Source: Gammaproteobacteria bacterium (GTDB lineage Bacteria; Pseudomonadota; Gammaproteobacteria; Pseudomonadales; Halieaceae). Taken from it: a DNA stretch of 40,926 nucleotides. This document shows, in pieces, positions 4,382-40,926 of the stretch. The position numbers and the translations under genes were made by a program. The DNA lies in the NCBI GenBank assembly GCA_030428835.1, contig JAUIEP010000025.1, forward strand, positions 1 through 40,926, written 5' to 3'. How positions within the stretch are numbered: the first letter of the stretch is position 1; every line of letters starts with the position of its first letter. The notes below the pieces were generated by a model that was not told the DNA's origin, did not search any database, and worked only from the letters and a program-made list of their open reading frames with translations.

Positions 4382-5479
4382 ATGACGGCGCGCGGCGACA
4401 CGCAGGACTACCGGGCGCTGTTCCTGACCCCCACTCCCATGCTCGACCTGCGCGCACCGGCGGAATACGCCCGGGGCGCCTTCCCCACCGCCTACAGCGC
4501 GCCTCTCATGACCGACGACGAGCGCGCGCAGGTAGGCACCTGTTACAAGCACGAGGGCCAGGAGGCCGCCATCGCACTGGGCCACACCCTGGTATCCGGC
4601 GCCGTGAAGGACGCGCGCCTCGCGCTGTGGTGCGACTTCGCGCGCCAGCACCCGGACGGCTATCTCTACTGCTGGCGCGGCGGCCTGCGCTCGGCGACGG
4701 TGCAACAGTGGCTCAGGGACGAGGGCATCGATTACCCGCGCGTCACCGGCGGCTACAAGGCGATGCGCACGTTCCTGCTGGCGGAGCTGGCGCGCGGCAT
4801 CGAGGCCGCCGAGGTCGTGCTGGTCAGCGGCCGCACGGGTACTGGCAAGACGCGGGTGATCGAGCGCCTGCCGCGGGCCATCGACCTCGAGGGACTGGCC
4901 AACCACCGCGGCTCCACCTTCGGCCAGATGCCGCAGGGGCAGCCGAGCCAGGTGGACTTCGAGAACGGCCTGGCGATTGCGCTGCTGCGCCTGCTCGCCC
5001 GCGGCGCTGCCCCGGTTTTCCTGGAGGACGAGGGCCGCCTCATCGGCAGGCTCGCGCTGCCGCAGGACCTGCGTGACAAGATGCGCGTGGCGCCGATGGT
5101 GATCGTCGAGCAGACGCTGGAGGAGCGGGTCGACGTGGTGGTGCAGGACTACATTGAAGACCTCGGGCGGCGCTATGCCATCCTCTATGCCGGGGAGGGC
5201 CCGCAACTGCACCGCGACAGGCTGCTCGATGACCTCGCCCGTATCCGGCGCCGCCTCGGGGGCGATCGCCACCAGCAGGTGGACGCCATGCTGCGCGCGG
5301 CGTTCGACGAACAGTGGCGCACGGGCGAGGCCGACGCGCACCGCGAGTGGGTGCGTTACCTGCTGGAGCGCTACTACGACCCCATGTACGACTACCAGCT
5401 CGACAAGCGCGAGGGCCAGTGCCTGTTCCGCGGCGACCGTGCCGCGGTGGTGCAATGGGCGCGGGAGCGCGCGGCGTGA
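4382..5479 (+). CDS. selU: tRNA 2-selenouridine synthase (rhodanese + P-loop)
   Basis: 365 aa; also known as MnmH/YbbB. It replaces sulfur with selenium in 2-thiouridine at the wobble position of Lys, Glu and Gln tRNAs, via a geranylated intermediate, using selenophosphate. An N-terminal rhodanese domain (about 10-135) carries the catalytic Cys97 in YLYCWRGGLRS, the same number as in E. coli. A P-loop GRTGTGKT at 150-157 starts the ATPase-like domain. The selenium donor SelD is encoded directly downstream: this gene's TGA overlaps the next ATG (ATGA), implying translational coupling. No selA, selB or selC is visible in the window. Confidence 0.95.
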   Translation: MTARGDTQDYRALFLTPTPMLDLRAPAEYARGAFPTAYSAPLMTDDERAQVGTCYKHEGQEAAIALGHTLVSGAVKDARLALWCDFARQHPDGYLYCWRGGLRSATVQQWLRDEGIDYPRVTGGYKAMRTFLLAELARGIEAAEVVLVSGRTGTGKTRVIERLPRAIDLEGLANHRGSTFGQMPQGQPSQVDFENGLAIALLRLLARGAAPVFLEDEGRLIGRLALPQDLRDKMRVAPMVIVEQTLEERVDVVVQDYIEDLGRRYAILYAGEGPQLHRDRLLDDLARIRRRLGGDRHQQVDAMLRAAFDEQWRTGEADAHREWVRYLLERYYDPMYDYQLDKREGQCLFRGDRAAVVQWARERAA

Positions 5480-7692
5480 TGCGCACTGCCGCGCCCGATC
5501 ATCGCGACCTCGTGCTGGTCGGTGGCGGGCACAGCCACGCGCTGGCCCTGCGCATGCTGGCGATGAAACCCATCGACGGGCTGCGCATCACGCTCATCTC
5601 GCCCGCCAGCCATACGCCATATTCCGGCATGCTGCCGGGCCTGATCGCCGGGCACTACACGTTCGAGGATGCGCATATCGATCTCGAACGCCTGTGCCGC
5701 TGGGCCGGGGTGCGCTTTATCGTCGCCGAAGTGACGGCGCTCAACCCGGCCGCGCGCACTGTCGCGATCGCGGGCAGGCCGCCGCTCGCCTACGACCTGC
5801 TCAGCATCGACATCGGTTCGCAACCCGAGCTCGACGCGGTGCCCGGCGCGCGCGAGCACGCCGTGCCCGTCAAACCCGTCGCCGGCCTGTGGCAGCGCTG
5901 GCGGGCGCTCGAGGCCGGCATGGCGGAGCGGGCGGGTGCCGGCGATTACCGCGTGTCCGTGGTGGGCGGCGGCGCCGGGGGCATCGAGATCGCCATGGCC
6001 ATGTCGCACCGCCTCGCCGGTCGCGCCGCCATCGACCTGTGGTGCGCGGCGCCGCGCATCCTCGAGGGCTACAACGCCCGCGCGCGCGGCGCGGTGGAGA
6101 AAGCGCTGGCCGCGCACAACGTCACGCTGCACACGGCGGCCCGCGTGGTGGGCGTCGAACCCGGAGAACTCGCGATCGAGGGCGGTGCGCGCGCCCGCTA
6201 CGACGACCTGTTCTGGTGTACCGGCGCCGGCGCGGCGCCCTGGCTCGCGGCGAGCGGCCTGCCGGTCGACGCGCGCGGCTTCCTCGCGGTGCGCGACACC
6301 CTGCAGTCCACCGGCGACGAGCGCGTCTTTGGCGCGGGTGACTGCGCCGCACAGCTCAACCACCCGCGACCCAAGGCCGGCGTGTTCGCGGTGCGGCAGG
6401 GTCCTGTGCTGGCCCGCAACCTGCGCGCCGCCGCCCTCGGCAATCCGCTGCGGGAACACCGGCCGCAGCGCCGCTTCCTCTCTCTCGTGTCGCTCGGGGA
6501 CCGGCGCGCGGTGGCGGACCGCGGCCTGTTCAGTGCCAGCGGCGCCTGGGTGTGGCGCTGGAAGGACCGTATCGATCGCGAGTTCATGACGCGTTTCTCC
6601 GATCTGCCGCGCAGCATGCCGGCCCGGGCCTGGGGGCGCCTGCCCGAACTCGCGGGCGTGGGCGAACAGGAGGCCTGCGGCGGCTGCGGCGCCAAGGTCG
6701 GCGCGGACATACTGAACGCGGCGCTGGCGGAGCTTGCCGGGCGCTACCCGGAACACTGTGTGAACTCGGGCGACGACGCCGTGGCGGTGTCCGCGGGCGG
6801 CGCGCTGCTGCAGAGCGTCGACGTGCTGCGCGAACTGGTGGCGGACCCCTGGCACATGGGCCGCATCGCCGCCAATCACGCGCTGAGCGACCTCTACGCC
6901 TGCGGCGCGCGGCCGACCAGCGCCCTCGCCGTCGTCACGCTGCCCTTCGCCGCGAGCCGCATACAACTGCGCGACCTCACGCAACTGCTGGGCGGAGCGC
7001 TGGATGTCTTCAGGCACGTGGATTGCCGGCTCGTCGGCGGGCACACCATGCAGGGCCCCGAGCTCGCGGTGGGGTTTGCGGTCAACGGTGTCGCGATCGC
7101 CGGCGACGGCGCGCCGCTCGATAAACGCGGCGCGCGCGTGGGCGACCTGCTCGTGCTGACCCGCCCGCTGGGCACCGGTGTGTTGTTTGCGGCGCACATG
7201 CAGCTCGCCGTGGACGGCCGCCATGTGCACGGGGCCCTCGCGCAGATGCACGCGGGCAACGGCGCCGCGGCGGAACTGGCGGTCGCGCTCGGCGCGAGCG
7301 CGTGCACGGACGTCACCGGCTTCGGGCTCGCCGGGCACCTGCGCGAGATGCTCGGTGCAACGCTCGCCGCGCGCGTGGACCTTGCTGCGCTGCCCGTGTT
7401 GCCCGGCGCACTGGCGGCACTGTCAGCCGGCTACCGCAGCACCATGCACGCGGCGAACGAACAGGGTGCCGCGGGCAGCGAACGCGTGCAGGGCGCCGTG
7501 GATGACACGCTGCGCGACCTGCTCTACGACCCGCAGACCAGTGGCGGACTGCTGATCGCCATCGCGCCGGAGCATGCCGGTGCATTGCTGGAGGCGCTCG
7601 CGGACGCTGACCTGACAGAGGCGGCGGTGATCGGCGCGGTGATTGAGCGCGAGCCCGGGCCGGGCAATACGCTGGTGCTCAGCCAGCTTTGA
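5479..7692 (+). CDS. selD: NDH-like flavoprotein fused to selenophosphate synthetase
   Basis: 737 aa, about twice the size of a lone SelD. Residues 1 to about 385 form a pyridine nucleotide-disulfide oxidoreductase like type II NADH dehydrogenase: FAD motif VLVGGGHSH (12-20), NAD(P) motif VVGGGAGGIE (161-170) and FGAGDCA (284-290). From about 398 it is SelD, which makes selenophosphate from selenide, ATP and water; active-site Cys403 and Lys406 (GGCGAK) match Cys17/Lys20 of E. coli, so the position is Cys, not selenocysteine. The ATG overlaps the selU stop. I chose it over an in-frame upstream codon because the FAD motif starts 12 residues in. Such fusions are known in other bacteria; the redox partner may supply or sense reduced selenium (inference). 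The 3' end overlaps the convergent gene by 14 bp. Confidence 0.94.
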   Translation: MRTAAPDHRDLVLVGGGHSHALALRMLAMKPIDGLRITLISPASHTPYSGMLPGLIAGHYTFEDAHIDLERLCRWAGVRFIVAEVTALNPAARTVAIAGRPPLAYDLLSIDIGSQPELDAVPGAREHAVPVKPVAGLWQRWRALEAGMAERAGAGDYRVSVVGGGAGGIEIAMAMSHRLAGRAAIDLWCAAPRILEGYNARARGAVEKALAAHNVTLHTAARVVGVEPGELAIEGGARARYDDLFWCTGAGAAPWLAASGLPVDARGFLAVRDTLQSTGDERVFGAGDCAAQLNHPRPKAGVFAVRQGPVLARNLRAAALGNPLREHRPQRRFLSLVSLGDRRAVADRGLFSASGAWVWRWKDRIDREFMTRFSDLPRSMPARAWGRLPELAGVGEQEACGGCGAKVGADILNAALAELAGRYPEHCVNSGDDAVAVSAGGALLQSVDVLRELVADPWHMGRIAANHALSDLYACGARPTSALAVVTLPFAASRIQLRDLTQLLGGALDVFRHVDCRLVGGHTMQGPELAVGFAVNGVAIAGDGAPLDKRGARVGDLLVLTRPLGTGVLFAAHMQLAVDGRHVHGALAQMHAGNGAAAELAVALGASACTDVTGFGLAGHLREMLGATLAARVDLAALPVLPGALAALSAGYRSTMHAANEQGAAGSERVQGAVDDTLRDLLYDPQTSGGLLIAIAPEHAGALLEALADADLTEAAVIGAVIEREPGPGNTLVLSQL

Positions 7693-33864: not shown

Positions 33865-33870
33865 AAGGAG
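33865..33870 (+). promoter_or_regulatory. Ribosome site fixing the amidohydrolase start
   Basis: AAGGAG 8 bases before GTG 33879. The earlier GTG at 33870 overlaps this site and so cannot be the start. Confidence 0.75.
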
Positions 33871-33878
33871 TGACACCC

Positions 33879-35333
33879 GTGCTGAAACCCCCATTAGCCT
33901 TCCCGACGTTGCCCAGTTTATCCAGACCGGCCCGCATACTGCTCGGCGTACTCGGCCTTGTACTCGCGGGCTGTGTGGCGCAGGAGGATGACGCACCCAT
34001 CGCGGTAGCGACACTCGATGTGCAGGGTCGCCCGATCCTTGTCCACGACGTCGCGATATTTGACAGCGCCGCGCTTGAAACAGTACCGGGCCGGGACGTG
34101 CTGATCCGCGGCGGCAGCATTGTTTCGGTCACACCGACGCGTGCGCTTGACGGCGGGAATAGTGTTCACGTCATACCGGGCAACGGCGCCACACTCATCC
34201 CCGGTCTGGTCGACATGCACGGCCACCTCACGACCACCACGGGGCCGACCTGGGCTTCCGCGGCGGCCAATCCCGAGAGCAACCTGCTGGCGTATGCCTA
34301 CGCCGGCGTGACCACGATCTTCGACCCGGGCGACAGCTCCGACGAGGCGTTCAGCCGGCGCGAGCGCGTGTCGAGTGGTGAGCTGGTGGGACCGCGTATC
34401 TTCACGGCGGGCAAGATCCTCACACACCCGGACGGGCACCCGCGCACCCTGGTGGAGGCGTTCGCGCCCGGCTGGATTGCGTGGCTGCTGAAAGACGGCG
34501 TTGCCACCGGTGTATCCACGCCCCAGGAGGCGCGCGCGGAGGTCGACGCGCGCGCGGACAGTGGCGTCGATGCCATCAAGGTCGTGGTCGACAGCATTCC
34601 GCTCGAGGCGGACATCCTGGCCAGGCCGGTACTCGCCAGCATCATTGAACGCGCGCGTGAGCGCGGCCTGCGCACGGTGGCACATATCGGCACTACCGAA
34701 GACGCGATCACCGCCGCCGAGAACGGCGTGGCGCTGTGGGTGCACGGTGTCTACAAGGAGCGGATTCCCGACGCAAAGATCGCGACAATCGCATCCTTCG
34801 GGATTCCCATGGTGACCACCAGCGAGGTGTTCGATCGCTACGGCCGCGCGATGGCGGGCCCGATCGAGCCGACAATACTGGAAAGCGAGACGGTCAGTGA
34901 CCACAAACTGGAATCCTTCTACCCGCCGCCGGAGGACTTCGACCTCGGCGACCTGGAGGGCTGGCTCACGCTGATGCAGGACACCCGCGAGGTGCGCCTG
35001 GACAACGTGGGCCGACTGCACAGGGCGGGCGTGACGATACTGGCGGGCAGCGATACCCAGTCCGGCGTGTTCCCCGGCGCGGGGCTGCACCGCGAACTCG
35101 CTACCCTGGTCGCGGCGGGGCTGACGCCCGCCGAGGCGCTGCGCGCCGCGACGCTCGACCCGGCGCGCTACCTCGAGCAGTCCGACGACCCGCTGTCCGG
35201 TATCATCGCCCCGGGCAAGCGCGCGGACCTGGTGTTGGTGAATGGTGATCCCACCGCCGATATTGCGGTGGCGAGCGATATTCGCGAGGTCATCCTGAAC
35301 GGCCGGCTGCTGGCACGACAGTCACTGAAATAA
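33879..35333 (+). CDS. Amidohydrolase lipoprotein
   Basis: 484 aa. Lipobox LVLAGC (Cys32) follows a short N-region, so it is membrane-anchored, likely periplasmic or outer-membrane. The metal-dependent amidohydrolase motif HGH (114-116), a candidate carboxylated Lys234 (DAIKVVVD), His269, His289 and Asp392 (AGSDTQSG) follow the binuclear imidazolonepropionase/prolidase-like pattern. Substrate unknown, perhaps peptides or lactams. GTG start chosen from the ribosome site. Confidence 0.88.
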   Translation: MLKPPLAFPTLPSLSRPARILLGVLGLVLAGCVAQEDDAPIAVATLDVQGRPILVHDVAIFDSAALETVPGRDVLIRGGSIVSVTPTRALDGGNSVHVIPGNGATLIPGLVDMHGHLTTTTGPTWASAAANPESNLLAYAYAGVTTIFDPGDSSDEAFSRRERVSSGELVGPRIFTAGKILTHPDGHPRTLVEAFAPGWIAWLLKDGVATGVSTPQEARAEVDARADSGVDAIKVVVDSIPLEADILARPVLASIIERARERGLRTVAHIGTTEDAITAAENGVALWVHGVYKERIPDAKIATIASFGIPMVTTSEVFDRYGRAMAGPIEPTILESETVSDHKLESFYPPPEDFDLGDLEGWLTLMQDTREVRLDNVGRLHRAGVTILAGSDTQSGVFPGAGLHRELATLVAAGLTPAEALRAATLDPARYLEQSDDPLSGIIAPGKRADLVLVNGDPTADIAVASDIREVILNGRLLARQSLK

Positions 35334-35389: not shown

Positions 35390-37195
35390 CTACTGCACCG
35401 CAACGACGTCCAGCACACTGTCGCCGCGCGGCACCGTGAACCGCACATGAAGCGGCCCGTCCGCGCCCACCCACTGCGCCACGTAGTCGCCGTAGGTCGC
35501 CTGCAGCTCGATGACGCCACGGGCGTCTGTCGTACCGTCGACCTGCGTCCGCCAGCGTTCGTTGAGCAGTGCGATGATTGCCTCGCCGTGACGTGACAGG
35601 TTGCCGTCGTCGTCATACACGCCGAGGTTTAGGTGGCTGCGCGGCCCGAGCGGGTTCCAGAAGTTCCAGAATATGATCTCTTCCACCAGCGGGTGGCCCC
35701 ACCACACCCGCATGATGGCCTCGGCCTGCGCGGCGCGCTCCTCCGGCTCCTCGGGCGCCGCGAACGTGACCTCCGTGATGTGGATGGGCAGGCCTGCCCC
35801 AGCGAGCGTGTCCAGCGCGGCGGCGTAGTCGTCCACCCGGGTGCGCTGGCTCAGGTCGACATCGACGCCCACGTTGACGAGTCCGGGCGCGAAGTGCCCC
35901 TGCTGTCCCACGGCGTCAACCGGCACGCCCGCTGCCAGCATGTCCAGGATGCGGTCGCGCACCGCGACGGAGTCCGGCCCGCCGACGCCGGTGAAAATCT
36001 CGCTGATCCACTCGTTGTACACGAGCTCGGCGCCCGGGTCCGCCGCGCGCGCCCAGCGGAAGGCGTCGTCGACGATGCCCGGCCCCAGGCGGTCGATGAA
36101 CCACGGCGTCAGCGCGTTCAGCATCTCGTTGGTGACTTCCCAGACGTCGATGCGGCCCGCGTAGCGGGATACCACGGTCTCGATGCGCTGTCGTATCAGC
36201 GCGCGCAATTGGGACGCTTCCTCGTCGGTCAGGTCGGTATCGGGAAACCTGTCGCGCAGCCACTCGGGCGTGCCGCTGCCCGAGGCGAGCGGGGGTGCAT
36301 TGCCCCACAGCAGCACGTGGGCCTTCACGTCGAAGCCCAGGGCCTCGGCCCAGGCCAGCTCCTCGTCGGCGAGGTCGAAGTTGAGCACTCCCTCCTCGCG
36401 CTCGGTGTTGCGCCATTTCAGGCTGGTCTCCGCCACCAGCAGCGACGTGTGGGGCCGCGCGATGCCGCCGTAGAATTCGAGCTTGCCCGGTTCGTCGCGG
36501 AACTCGCGGATGTCCAGCGGTACGCCGAAGCGGAAGGCGTGTTCCACCTGGGTGACGTTGACCGCGGTGGCGGGCGCTCCCGTCCACAGGCGGATGGGCC
36601 TGCCCCGCAGCGCCGCGGCGCGCTCGTCTGCCGCCGCGACCACCGCGAGTTCAGCGGCGTCGAGAAACCCGTTGAGGTCCGCCGGTTTGCCGTCGGGCAG
36701 TGCGGGCAGGGCCACGCTGCCCGCAGTCAGGTTTGCGGGGAGGAAGCCGCACGCCTGTTCCTCATTCGCGAACTCCGTGCGGCACCGGTTACTGCAATAC
36801 AGGTTGTCAGGGTCGCAGGACTGTTCGCACTGCGCGTGTCGTGCGGTCGCGCTCGCACGGCACTCGTTGATACCGGGCGCGCAGTCGGCGCCGCCGCATA
36901 CAGGCGCGAACTCGTTGAGCGACAGCGCACAGGACGCGGCGCCGGTCTCCCCGGAAGCGGAACAGGCCTCCTCGCACGTGGCGCCAGCCGCCGGGTCGGT
37001 GAAGCGTTCGCACCGGCCCAGGCACGCCCGCGCGGCGTGTTCGGCCGCCGCTGTGCAGCTGTCACGCGCCGCGAGCAGGTCCTGGCGCGGCGCCGTGTCA
37101 TGGCCGTCTGAACAGCCGGCGAGCAACAGCGCGGCGAGGATAACGGGGAGCGCGATCGACCGGGATACGCACCGCGCTGATGCAATGAAAATCAA
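35390..37195 (-). CDS. GH10-like endoxylanase lipoprotein with Cys-rich N-terminal region
   Basis: 601 aa. Signal with lipobox LLLAGC, then a region of about 105 residues with 14 cysteines (47-149), then a glycoside hydrolase 10-like domain: acid/base Glu in WEVTNEML (357) and nucleophile Glu in HITEVTF (475), with intervening EHAFRFGVPL, KWRNTER, KAHVLLWG and NEW. A C-terminal beta region (about 550-601) follows. GH10 enzymes cut beta-1,4-xylan. The N-terminal region is unlike usual GH10 appendages. The start is TTG 37195 with GGAG 9 bases before; an upstream TTG overlaps the ribosome site. Confidence 0.85.
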   Translation of the reverse strand: MIFIASARCVSRSIALPVILAALLLAGCSDGHDTAPRQDLLAARDSCTAAAEHAARACLGRCERFTDPAAGATCEEACSASGETGAASCALSLNEFAPVCGGADCAPGINECRASATARHAQCEQSCDPDNLYCSNRCRTEFANEEQACGFLPANLTAGSVALPALPDGKPADLNGFLDAAELAVVAAADERAAALRGRPIRLWTGAPATAVNVTQVEHAFRFGVPLDIREFRDEPGKLEFYGGIARPHTSLLVAETSLKWRNTEREEGVLNFDLADEELAWAEALGFDVKAHVLLWGNAPPLASGSGTPEWLRDRFPDTDLTDEEASQLRALIRQRIETVVSRYAGRIDVWEVTNEMLNALTPWFIDRLGPGIVDDAFRWARAADPGAELVYNEWISEIFTGVGGPDSVAVRDRILDMLAAGVPVDAVGQQGHFAPGLVNVGVDVDLSQRTRVDDYAAALDTLAGAGLPIHITEVTFAAPEEPEERAAQAEAIMRVWWGHPLVEEIIFWNFWNPLGPRSHLNLGVYDDDGNLSRHGEAIIALLNERWRTQVDGTTDARGVIELQATYGDYVAQWVGADGPLHVRFTVPRGDSVLDVVAVQ

Positions 37196-37204
37196 GTTGG
37201 GCAG

Positions 37205-37208
37205 CTCC
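37205..37208 (-). promoter_or_regulatory. Ribosome site fixing the GH10 start
   Basis: GGAG on the minus strand, 9 bases before TTG 37195. It overlaps an upstream in-frame TTG at 37210, which is therefore an unlikely start. Confidence 0.5.
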
Positions 37209-37273
37209 AAAAAAGTAATGGGAGCCGCAGCAGGACAAACTCCCGGTGTAAACAGGTGCGGACAAGTATAGAT

Positions 37274-37306
37274 AAAAAAGCCGCCGAGGACGGTTTCCTC
37301 GGCGGC
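37274..37306 (-). terminator. Strong intrinsic terminator
   Basis: On the minus strand an 11-bp perfect stem gccgccgagga/tcctcggcggc with a 5-nt loop is followed by TTTTTT. It ends the transcript of the small gene at 37363-37674 before the GH10 gene. Confidence 0.9.
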
Positions 37307-37362: not shown

Positions 37363-37674
37363 CTAGAGGGTCTTCGTACTCAGCTCGATGTTCAGCGTTG
37401 CGTCAACGACGAAGTCTTCGCCCGCGTCGCGCAGCAGGCGCTCCAGAGCCTGTAACTGAGTGAGTGCCCGCCGGGAGGCGGAGTCGGGCTCGCCAAAGCG
37501 CTCCTGGTGACTCCGGTCGCGCAGCGTGTGGTACTGCCCGATTGCGCCGAGCAGCGCAATCAACGGTATGTCCGAGTCGCGCGAGCGCAGCGGTTCCTGC
37601 AGCAGGGGGAGACGGATGGAGGCCTCGCCTCGCGGGTCATCGCGGCGGTGTAGCTGTTTGACGTGTGCGTTCAT
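37363..37674 (-). CDS. Small hypothetical protein
   Basis: 103 aa, mostly helical, charged, no signal peptide or membrane helix. AAGGAG lies 6 bases before the ATG at 37674, and a strong terminator follows it, so it is a real transcription unit. The family is not one I recognise. It lies downstream of the NhaR-like regulator by 116 bp and may be co-transcribed or have its own promoter. Confidence 0.6.
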   Translation of the reverse strand: MNAHVKQLHRRDDPRGEASIRLPLLQEPLRSRDSDIPLIALLGAIGQYHTLRDRSHQERFGEPDSASRRALTQLQALERLLRDAGEDFVVDATLNIELSTKTL

Positions 37675-37790: not shown

Positions 37791-38705
37791 TCATTGCCGG
37801 TCATCCGTGGCGAAGAAACGGCGCGCGGACTCAAGCAGTTGTTTCACTCCGGGGTGCTTGACCTTGCGCTCCGGGGACACGGCGTAGAACTGTTCGCGTA
37901 CTTCCCCGGTACGCCCGATAACCGCAACGCCGTACTGCGCGACGACATGGCTCTCGATGATGCCGGGTGTGCAGAATACGCCGTGACCTGAGCGGCCGAA
38001 GTACTTGATCAGCGCACTGTCGTCGCACTCCGCGACGACTTGCGGCGTGATCTGCTGGCTGTCGAACCAGCTCTGCAGGTTCATCTTCTGGTTGGACTTG
38101 TCACCGCAGATAAGCAGCGGGGCCCCGTGCAGCGAGTGCGGGAATTCCCGTGCCAGATCCGGCGCCGTGTCGTTGCTGGCGAAGAATGTCAGGCCGCACT
38201 CTCCGAGGAAATGGTTGTAGGCGCGAATGGGCATGCCCGGCGGCAGTTGCCTGTCGGTCAACACGAGGTCCAGCTTGTTCAGGGCCAACTCGGAGAGCAG
38301 GGTGTCGAAGTCGCCCTCCCTGCAGATCAACTTCATGGGACCGGTGAGCTCGAAGCAACTCTCCAGGATGTTCACGGACAGGATCTTCGGAATGACATCG
38401 GTGACGCCGACGGCGAACCGGAGCTGCTCCTTGCTGTCGCGCCGCTGGATGCTCTGCTGCAGCTCGGCACCGAGCGAAAAGATGTCCTGCGCGTAGTCGT
38501 AGACCATTCTACCCATGTCGTTCAGGACGAGCTGCTTGCCCTTGCGGTCGAACAGGTGCACGCCAAGGTAGTCCTGGAACACGCCCAGTTGCCCGCTGAT
38601 GGTCTGTGGCGACACGTGCAGGCGCTCCGCGGCACCCGCGACGCTGCCCTCCCGTGCGGTCGTGTAAAAGTAGTGCAGGTGTTTGTAGTTGAGCTGGTTC
38701 GACAT
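37791..38705 (-). CDS. nhaR: NhaR-like LysR family regulator
   Basis: 304 aa. The N-terminal winged HTH (LNYKHLHYFYTTAREGSVAG, then AAERLHVSPQTISGQL) matches NhaR closely; E. coli NhaR activates the Na+/H+ antiporter gene nhaA in response to sodium. An inducer domain of about 215 residues follows. The NhaR name is by similarity of the HTH; the target here need not be an antiporter. It starts 3 bp after purK and ends the sbtA-purE-purK cassette, so it may sense Na+ for a Na+-dependent bicarbonate permease (inference). Confidence 0.82.
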   Translation of the reverse strand: MSNQLNYKHLHYFYTTAREGSVAGAAERLHVSPQTISGQLGVFQDYLGVHLFDRKGKQLVLNDMGRMVYDYAQDIFSLGAELQQSIQRRDSKEQLRFAVGVTDVIPKILSVNILESCFELTGPMKLICREGDFDTLLSELALNKLDLVLTDRQLPPGMPIRAYNHFLGECGLTFFASNDTAPDLAREFPHSLHGAPLLICGDKSNQKMNLQSWFDSQQITPQVVAECDDSALIKYFGRSGHGVFCTPGIIESHVVAQYGVAVIGRTGEVREQFYAVSPERKVKHPGVKQLLESARRFFATDDRQ

Positions 38706-38708
38706 GGC

Positions 38709-39815
38709 TCAGGTCTCCGCGGACGCGGCCCCCGTCTCGCGCCTGAACCGGTCCATGCGCTGCAACAGCTCGTCGTGGCTGCTGCCCGAGAAGTTGACGT
38801 GGCCCAGTTTGCGACCGGGTTTTGCTGTCTTGTTGTACCAGTGCAGCGTGGAGTGCGTGGACAACGCGGCCTCCGCGGGCACCCGGTTGCCGATCAGGTT
38901 CACCATGCCCGCGATGCTGTGGTTTTCCGTGCTGCCCAGTGGCAGCCCCGTGATGGCGCGCAGGTGGTTTTCGAACTGGCTGGTCTTGCAGCCGGCCTGC
39001 GTCCAGTGGCCGCTGTTGTGGACCCGGGGCGCGATCTCGTTGACGAGCAGCTCGCCCTGCACGATGAAACACTCCATCGCCATCACACCGACGTAGTCGA
39101 TGGCCTGCAGCACCCGCGCCGCGTAGTCGTGCGCCGCGCGGGTCGCGGCCATCGGCAGGTTCCTCGCGGGCGCGATCGAATGCCTGAGGATGCCGCTCTC
39201 GTGCACGTTCTCGGTCACCGGGTAGTGCTTGATGTGGCCGGCGCGGTCGCGCACGGAAATAAGCGAGACCTCCCGCTCGAAAGGGATCCACTGTTCGATG
39301 ATGTAGTCGGCGTGCCCCGCCCGCGCGTCGTATGCCGCGATATCCTCCGGGGTTCGCAAGAGCTGCTGGTTCCTGCCGTCGTAACCGCCGCGACAGGACT
39401 TGGCCACCATGGGTAGCGACAGTGAGGCCGCGGCCGCGGCGGCCGTCCGCCCGAGCACGTGCGGTGTGCTGGGTATTCCCAGGTCGGCCAGCAACCGCTT
39501 TTCCCTGCCGCGGTCCTGCAGCGCCGCGAAGGCGCCGGGGTTGGGGTGCACGGTGCAGCAGGTCTCCAGCGCCCGCAGTAGATCGGGGTCTATCTGCTCC
39601 TTCTCCGCCGTAACCACGTCGGGGCCGCCCAGCGCGGCAACGAGCTCCTGCGGTGCCTGCCCGGGGCGCCAGTGCACGACCGCGCCGAGTTGCTCCACAC
39701 AGGCGGTGTCCTGGCCCGGGTCGTCGGCGATGAAGCTGAACCTGAAGCCCAGCGGTATGCCCGCGAGCGCCAGCATCCGCGACAACTGGCCACAACCGAT
39801 GATTGCGATGTGCAC
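38709..39815 (-). CDS. purK: 5-(Carboxyamino)imidazole ribonucleotide synthase
   Basis: 368 aa, ATP-grasp fold. It converts AIR, ATP and bicarbonate to N5-CAIR in purine synthesis. IAIIGCGQLSRMLA at the N-terminus, AKSCRGGYDGRNQQ (ATP loop) and VNEIAPRVHNSGHWT are family features. GTG start 39815 has GGAGG 7 bases before it and overlaps the purE stop by one base (TAGTG), so the two are coupled. Confidence 0.95.
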   Translation of the reverse strand: MHIAIIGCGQLSRMLALAGIPLGFRFSFIADDPGQDTACVEQLGAVVHWRPGQAPQELVAALGGPDVVTAEKEQIDPDLLRALETCCTVHPNPGAFAALQDRGREKRLLADLGIPSTPHVLGRTAAAAAASLSLPMVAKSCRGGYDGRNQQLLRTPEDIAAYDARAGHADYIIEQWIPFEREVSLISVRDRAGHIKHYPVTENVHESGILRHSIAPARNLPMAATRAAHDYAARVLQAIDYVGVMAMECFIVQGELLVNEIAPRVHNSGHWTQAGCKTSQFENHLRAITGLPLGSTENHSIAGMVNLIGNRVPAEAALSTHSTLHWYNKTAKPGRKLGHVNFSGSSHDELLQRMDRFRRETGAASAET

Positions 39816-40291
39816 TACTCGACCTCCGTGGGAACGTCCGCTGTTTGCGCCTCGCGCCACCGGATGACGCGCTCGCGCAGTTGTGCGTCGCTCGTCGCGA
39901 GGATCTGCGCCGCCATCAGCCCGGCGTTGCAGGCGCCGGGTTCGCCGATGGCCTGGGTCGCTACGGCGACACCCTTCGGCATCTGCACGATGGACAACAG
40001 GCTGTCTATGCCGTTGAGCGCCCTGCTCGTGACCGGCACCGCGATGACCGGCAACCATGTCAGCGCCGCCGTCATGCCCGGCAGGTGGGCCGCGCCGCCG
40101 GCGCCGGCGATGATGACGCTGTACTTGCGCTCGGCCTCGCGGGCGAAGTCGTAGAGGCGCTGTGGCGTGCGATGCGCCGACACCACCGCGTCCTCGTGGG
40201 GGACGCCCAGCGCATCGAGCACCTCGGCGGCCCCGCGCAGCACGGGCCAGTCCGAGCGCGACCCCATGATGATGGCGACCTTGCCCGTCAT
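39815..40291 (-). CDS. purE: 5-(Carboxyamino)imidazole ribonucleotide mutase
   Basis: 158 aa, class I PurE. It converts N5-CAIR to [24 protein letters not shown] and [12 protein letters not shown] are the conserved blocks around the substrate site. The ATG (40291) overlaps the permease stop (ATGA) and the stop overlaps the purK start, giving an unbroken coupled chain. Confidence 0.96.
39823..39827 (-). promoter_or_regulatory. Ribosome site fixing the purK GTG start
   Basis: GGAGG on the minus strand, 7 bases before GTG 39815. Confidence 0.75.
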
Positions 40292-40926
40292 ACCATGACC
40301 CCCGAGAACGCCTCGGTAATCACCATGTAGGTCGGGATACCGATGAGGACGTTGAAGGGAAACGTGATCCCCAGCGACGCGCTGATCGAGAGGCTGTGAT
40401 TGGCCTGCGGCAGGGCGAGCTGCATGGCGGCGGGCACCGCGATGTAGGAGGCGCTGGCGCCCAGCACCGCGAGTAGTATCGCACCGCCTGAGGACAGCCC
40501 GATCGCGATACCCAGCAGGCAACCCAGCGTTCCGCCCACCAGGGGCATCGCGACGCCGAAGGCGAGCATGAAGCTGCCGAGGCGCCTGATGTCCTTGATG
40601 CAGTTGGCGGCGAGGATGCCCATCTGCAGGAGGAACAGGGCGAGCACGCCTTTGAACAGGTCGAAGAACAGCGGCGCGACGGCCTCGATACGCGGGCCCG
40701 CCACCAGTCCGACCAGGAGTCCGCCCACCATCAGTACCACGCCCTGGTTGAGGAACACCTCGTGCAGCAATTTACGCGTATCGGCGGAGACCAGGGTGCC
40801 GCCGCCGGCGGGCGCGCCCGCCCGGGCGCGGCGTGCAAGGACGATACCCACCGCGATGGCGGGCATTTCGAGCAGCACCACGAAGAGCGGGAGGTAGGCC
40901 TCGTACGCTATGCCGCGGGCCTCGAG
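40288..40926 (-). CDS. SbtA-type sodium-dependent bicarbonate permease, partial
   Basis: 212 C-terminal residues; the gene continues past the window edge, where the frame stays open. About six hydrophobic helices remain. [40 protein letters not shown] and [20 protein letters not shown] fit the DUF897/SbtA family, whose cyanobacterial member takes up bicarbonate with Na+. Whether this homologue moves bicarbonate is not proven. It is directly upstream of purE with stop-start overlap ATGA. Confidence 0.82.

Follow-up and report, generated by a model that had tools for sequence, protein, structure and literature searches.

An SbtA-type permease gene recurrently joined to purE and purK in Gammaproteobacteria: a probable bicarbonate-supply operon for purine synthesis

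Why would the gene of an inorganic-carbon permease abut two genes of purine synthesis? The question is raised by the window analysed here, a whole contig of 40926 bp (JAUIEP010000025.1 of assembly GCA_030428835.1; G000:C8 in our numbering) from a gammaproteobacterium of the family Halieaceae (Pseudomonadales). At its end, on the minus strand, the C-terminal 212 amino acids of an SbtA-type Na+/bicarbonate permease (40288..40926; PF05982, Sbt_1, 231.7 bits against a curated cut-off of 27) are followed by purE, encoding N5-carboxyaminoimidazole ribonucleotide (N5-CAIR) mutase (39815..40291, 158 amino acids; TIGR01162, 193.6 bits, cut-off 149.6), by purK, encoding the bicarbonate-using N5-CAIR synthase and starting with GTG (38709..39815, 368 amino acids; TIGR01161, 349.5 bits, cut-off 318.4), and by a gene for an NhaR-type LysR regulator (37791..38705, 304 amino acids; NF008284, 224.9 bits, cut-off 219). 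The stop of the permease (40288-40290) and the purE ATG overlap in the sequence ATGA, base 39815 is common to the purE TAG and the purK GTG (TAGTG), and 3 bp lie between the purK stop (38709-38711) and the NhaR ATG (38705); this one-strand order, first noted in a sequence-only reading of the window, is borne out by direct reading and by the profile matches. PurE and PurK score above equivalog cut-offs, purK being the sole match in the genome over that of TIGR01161, while the NhaR gene passes its equivalog cut-off narrowly, with the second-best genome match at 39 bits. The genes are known ones in a conserved arrangement that is undescribed as far as our literature search reaches: no description of SbtA beside purEK was found in the parts of the literature covered, in which a pairing that appears solely in figures or tables would be missed.

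The permease is partial because the window ends where the contig ends. A second contig of the same genome, C316, shares 23 identical bases with the window end and continues the permease frame with the N-terminal part (L045 3-350, minus strand), which gives a protein of 321 amino acids in total. The join rests on these 23 bases, on the unbroken frame and on a genome of the same genus (L141), in which the order is regulator-permease-purE-purK. Upstream of the permease on C316 lie an open reading frame (ORF) of 74 amino acids and then a divergent LysR gene (L045 781-1716), and the cluster therefore starts outside the window. The closest relatives of the divergent regulator in the PDB are 5y2v (240.7 bits), deposited as 'Rubisco operon transcriptional regulator' and presumably CcmR/NdhR, and CmpR (5z49, 194.4 bits); the next other protein scores 108.6 bits. 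The NCBIfam CbbR model is its best match, yet the score stays below the equivalog cut-off (227.5 vs 450), and we therefore call the regulator CbbR-like and not CbbR. It resembles the CmpR/CbbR-type regulators in that these are its nearest solved relatives, but it adjoins SbtA-purEK and not RuBisCO genes.

The arrangement is not confined to this strain: a comparison of the neighbourhoods of SbtA genes in gammaproteobacteria found the pairing with purEK recurring, in three gene orders, across a sample of the order and in named genera. Among 194 genomes of the order, PF05982 was matched in 67, of which four weak cases (G001, G016, G118, G166) were dropped and 63 kept, and purK was called at E<=1e-58 in 138. 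SbtA and purK lie within 5 kb of each other in 26 of the 58 genomes that have both (this genome included), always on one strand, with SbtA first in 20 and purK first in 6. Random placement would give about 0.2 linked genomes, a comparison that is not a clean test for related genomes; on account of the recurrence on the same strand in three gene orders, we reject a chance adjacency of permease and purEK. In GTDB contigs, 34 of the 80 best named SbtA loci are linked, 32 of them with SbtA first; these loci had been selected in order of similarity to the window-type permease, and their linked share is not a population frequency. The linked genera include Shewanella, Microbulbifer, Marinobacter, Neptuniibacter, Paraferrimonas, Oceanospirillum, Pleionea, Kangiella, Halioglobus and others, and in one of the 34 loci (L210) the contig stops within purE. 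In 53 of 57 loci, the SbtA and purE ORFs are no more than 60 bp apart. In another of the 34 named loci, from Kangiellaceae (L221 6001-8114, oriented to SbtA), purK stands straight behind SbtA and purE was not detected.

Across all 171 loci with usable SbtA (12 sequences are present twice), 58 have the order SbtA-purEK, 10 purE-purK-SbtA and 6 purK-purE-SbtA; SbtA is unlinked in 93, and four loci are undecided at contig ends. By parsimony on quick trees, that is, as minimum-change counts on trees without full support, rooted by a chosen outgroup and at the midpoint, linkage was gained 11 times and lost 9 times on the SbtA tree, and the PurK tree (115 proteins) has 16 gains, of which 15 concern SbtA linkage and one carbonic anhydrase, together with 5 losses and a single replacement of SbtA by DabBA; the tree loci were selected by SbtA or purK, and the exact numbers of gains are not to be leaned on. 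The safer statement is that the three gene orders occupy separate clades, and the pairing of permease and purEK seems to have arisen several separate times. Two further loci resemble remnants. L280 carries, directly before purE, an SbtA-like C-terminal fragment of about 136 amino acids (5234-5644, oriented to purK; 38 bits), probably a decayed permease, and in Pseudomaricurvus alkylphenolicus (L196) an opposite-strand ORF about 21 bp behind SbtA resembles the CBS gene that other loci have behind purK, which would fit a deletion of purEK.

Other suppliers of inorganic carbon also occur at this site. In L146, a locus nested in the SbtA-purEK clade, a DabB-like gene (PF00361, 145 bits) and a DabA gene (PF10070, 901.6 bits) precede purE-purK, with 36 bp between the DabA stop and the purE ATG; transporters of the DAB/MpsAB type here take the place of SbtA before purEK, but they form a protein family unrelated to it. 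L278 and L279 carry purE-purK-beta-carbonic anhydrase, the start of the anhydrase gene overlapping the purK stop (in L279 via a GTG start), and at least two such neighbours of purK were found by eye among the matches listed. Comparison of match lists placed DabA in 18 of the 194 genomes of the order, none near purK, and in 14 of 61 genomes of the family, one near purK. A SulP gene (PF00916, 289.5 bits in L162) on the opposite strand, 0.6 kb (L162) or 2.3 kb (L164) behind purK, is only a hint. The enzymes themselves, over their equivalog cut-offs, are like those of the purEK operon of other bacteria; the difference lies in the neighbours, for 17 hand-chosen purEK loci of the order that are unlinked to SbtA had no SbtA, SbtB, DabA, DabB, SulP or beta-carbonic anhydrase gene in the examined flanks. 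The sections of the MpsAB paper drawn on here name purine carboxylation as one use of bicarbonate and mention no gene link to purEK (PMC6689103). Inorganic-carbon toolkit genes beside Calvin-cycle genes in autotrophs offer a parallel in that a supply gene adjoins a carbon-using enzyme, whereas the user here would be the purine carboxylation step and not RuBisCO; the sections drawn on from the review that describes this parallel mention no gene link to purK (PMC10880623). In L185 and L186, genes for SbtA, SbtB, CbbR-like, DabB-like and DabA-like proteins succeed one another in one neighbourhood.

Does the permease, then, serve purEK in particular? It might instead feed all carboxylases of a heterotroph, such as pyruvate or phosphoenolpyruvate carboxylase, acetyl-CoA carboxylase and carbamoyl phosphate synthase, purEK being merely the biosynthetic locus at which it came to lie, not specially coupled to it. 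The 93 of 171 SbtA loci without purEK in the examined flanks are consistent with this, as are 13 unlinked loci in which the mechanically called ORFs behind SbtA include no repeated partner, and the MpsAB paper, in the sections drawn on, argues for a general anaplerotic supply in which purine carboxylation is one of three uses (PMC6689103). However, the three gene orders, the repeated gains and the substitution by DabBA or carbonic anhydrase point to purEK itself, and the 17 chosen purEK loci without the sought supply genes also speak against a mere settling place; we regard it as unlikely.

The region between the CmpR-like gene and SbtA carries a conserved footprint. Of 66 distinct regions of this kind, 49 carry a half-site pair TAGA...TCTA, where shuffles would give 0.6; the stricter ATAGAT-N1-5-ATCTAT and a WWATCTATTTTTA box are each present in 29, against expectations of 0.1 and 0.0, respectively. 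The patterns were picked after viewing the sequences and describe a footprint rather than a blind test, and kinship of the sequences also accounts for sharing. On C316, putative operator sites lie at L045 640-653 and 719-734.

We propose that this cluster works as an operon that supplies bicarbonate to purine synthesis, a reading to which we give roughly two chances in three. Bicarbonate supply for PurK appears the most likely reason for the arrangement because the pairing is convergent and its supplier has been swapped. According to this scenario, (i) the CmpR/CbbR-type LysR regulator encoded on C316 would sense low inorganic carbon; (ii) it would act on the conserved ATAGATN4ATCTAT-type operator and turn on the SbtA-type permease together with purE and purK; (iii) HCO3- would enter the cytosol through the permease, together with Na+; (iv) PurK would make N5-CAIR from HCO3- with ATP, and PurE would turn N5-CAIR into carboxyaminoimidazole ribonucleotide (CAIR). 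In the sections of the literature drawn on, PurK is described as using HCO3-, and a need for high CO2 is described for purK mutants of cyanobacteria (PMC10880623). The sequence-only reading had suggested that the cassette matches the supply of both bicarbonate and Na+ to purine synthesis; its bicarbonate half has good contextual support in the three gene orders, in the replacement of the permease by DabBA or beta-carbonic anhydrase and in the CmpR-like divergent regulator, while its sodium half is weak in view of the neighbourhoods of NhaR described below. Within the cluster, a simple pattern scan of the minus strand found no terminator-like site in the four genes, in keeping with that reading as far as such a scan reaches, and no promoter; the terminator scan is weak either way, with 3 sites in total vs 2.5 in shuffles.

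Several observations weigh against a supply operon, some of them from gene neighbourhoods and others from the permease. SbtA stands without purEK nearby in 33 of 59 examined loci of the order. In a sample of the class, SbtA occurs in 48 of 321 genomes and 3 of 20 examined loci are linked (L172, L173, L180), these 20 having been taken from 51 other SbtA places and the remainder compared by eye among the purK matches listed; in the class at large the linkage looks rare. DabBA adjoins purEK in one genome only, and the pairing with carbonic anhydrase is limited to one genus. The strict operator site is found in 19 of 39 regions with purEK vs 10 of 26 without, and the footprint therefore belongs to the regulation of SbtA and not to the purine link. 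The genome also carries a beta-carbonic anhydrase, and import is thus not its sole source of HCO3-. A role of the importer as a replacement for carbonic anhydrase was rejected for this genome on the same ground, the enzyme being present here and in 171 of the 194 genomes of the order. An autotrophic use of the imported carbon through RuBisCO is likewise unlikely in this genome. Three RuBisCO-family matches to PF00016 (G000:C283, C37 and C132; 82, 51 and 41 bits) exceed the Pfam cut-off of 30.1, but the best of them, scored over its whole 432-amino-acid ORF, reaches 149 bits, far short of the 497 set as a RuBisCO cut-off, and probably represents a RuBisCO-like protein; the part of the second that was scored matched no NCBIfam family, and no other Calvin-cycle gene was sought.

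The permease raises doubts of its own. In cyanobacterial SbtA, bicarbonate is contacted by Ser114, Tyr140, Ser324 and Ser327 (PMC8352866, in the sections drawn on). Serine stands at the positions of Ser114 and Ser324 in 172 of 172 SbtA proteins, whereas Tyr140 and Ser327 are each replaced in 169; the window permease has S99, V125, S269 and A272 at the four sites and thus lacks two of the contacts. Both replacements also occur in most SbtA proteins paired with a PII-type (SbtB) gene and therefore do not mark the purEK type. The window permease shares PF05982 membership and the two serines with the cyanobacterial SbtA-SbtB systems (Synechocystis slr1512; PDB 7cye, 7egk) but differs from them in the replacement of Tyr140 and Ser327, in its linkage to purEK and in having no sbtB behind it, where purE follows directly; with two of the four contacts replaced, we did not place it in that subfamily. 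For a related permease of Shewanella oneidensis, SO_3758, the sections of the report drawn on call the direction of transport unknown and present a model that leans to efflux (PMC12093963), and the parts of the literature covered by our search contained no transport assay of this permease subfamily. We infer that the window permease transports bicarbonate, presumably inwards.

These features bear on another explanation, in which the permease would carry formate or another small anion, perhaps outwards, and the purine link would run via formate-using purine enzymes and not via PurK. A point mutant of SO_3758 gives formate tolerance, with formate a possible substrate of the mutant (PMC12093963, sections drawn on). 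The two replaced contacts would fit a different substrate. The genome also holds a second, weaker purK-family match on contig C247, which we take to be possibly the formate-using PurT. On the other hand, the same two replacements are found in 169 of 172 SbtA proteins, including most of the SbtB-paired ones, DabBA and beta-carbonic anhydrase, which act on CO2 or HCO3-, substitute at purEK, and the regulator is CmpR-like. We regard this explanation as highly improbable, and bicarbonate remains the substrate that we favour.

What, finally, does the NhaR gene contribute? It could be a true member of the operon, adjusting both the Na+-driven uptake of bicarbonate and purine synthesis to the Na+ available. 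The 3-bp junction to purK is in line with this, and genes of the NhaR type are found near SbtA-purEK in several other arrangements: the gene is divergent from purE-purK-SbtA in L136, L168 and L169, and in L146 (560-7197) an NhaR-like gene (177.5 bits vs the cut-off of 219) is divergent from DabB-DabA-purE-purK. However, in none of 94 other purK loci does NhaR follow purK on its strand at a distance of up to 300 bp, and it is because of this that the sodium link is weak. A match above 150 bits is present in the examined flank of 20 of these 94 loci, three of the 20 being second copies from the same genome. In four relatives (L056, L065, L072, L077), NhaR lies 1.1-2.5 kb behind purK, past one to four divergently oriented genes, recognised from their sequence as presumably encoding YccA-like, HPF-like and CBS proteins; in this genome a YccA-like gene lies on C316, i.e. 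on the opposite side of the cluster. Within the examined flanks, NhaR accompanies only 11 of the 58 SbtA-purEK loci and is also found at 9 of 93 SbtA loci without purEK. Membership in the operon is accordingly doubtful, and quite unlikely in our judgement. A rearrangement that placed NhaR against purK in this genome would be the simplest explanation; the gene may nevertheless be co-transcribed with purK.

The recurrence around purEK, seen in many marine bacteria, suggests that cells tie the supply of bicarbonate directly to the making of DNA and RNA building blocks. The named linked genera are heterotrophs, and inorganic-carbon uptake has mainly been studied as a device of autotrophs. We tentatively extend the supply reading to heterotrophic proteobacteria in general, in which inorganic-carbon supply might have been attached to purEK again and again, SbtA, DabBA or carbonic anhydrase being recruited there because PurK would be the first carboxylase to lack bicarbonate when the pH is high or CO2 is low; this extension is plausible, but we lean slightly against it. 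If true, a small CO2-concentrating device governed by a CmpR-type regulator would operate in these heterotrophs for purines and not for RuBisCO. The pairing would then name a concrete demand that drives inorganic-carbon uptake in heterotrophs, provide the proteobacterial SbtA subfamily with a role open to experiment and hint at why such bacteria retain importers alongside carbonic anhydrase.

Among the loci in which SbtA lacks purEK, five (L066, L067, L069, L076, L080) have it flanked by a fur-like gene and by recN, with dnaK and dnaJ in the neighbourhood, names that we assume from the sequences. Downstream of NhaR in the window, a small ORF of 103 amino acids (37363..37674, minus strand) belongs to no Pfam or NCBIfam family; an in-frame start further upstream, at 37794, would overlap the NhaR stop, and weak relatives stand behind NhaR in L056 and L077. 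Past this ORF lies the best terminator-like site of the minus strand (37280..37306), a hairpin of 11 pairs, 9 of them GC, followed by a T run, which is a possible end of the transcript. Beyond it, the window encodes a member of glycosyl hydrolase family 10 whose N-terminal stretch is rich in cysteine (35390-37210, minus strand; 125.9 bits) and, on the plus strand, an amidohydrolase (33870-35333; Amidohydro_1, 78 bits).

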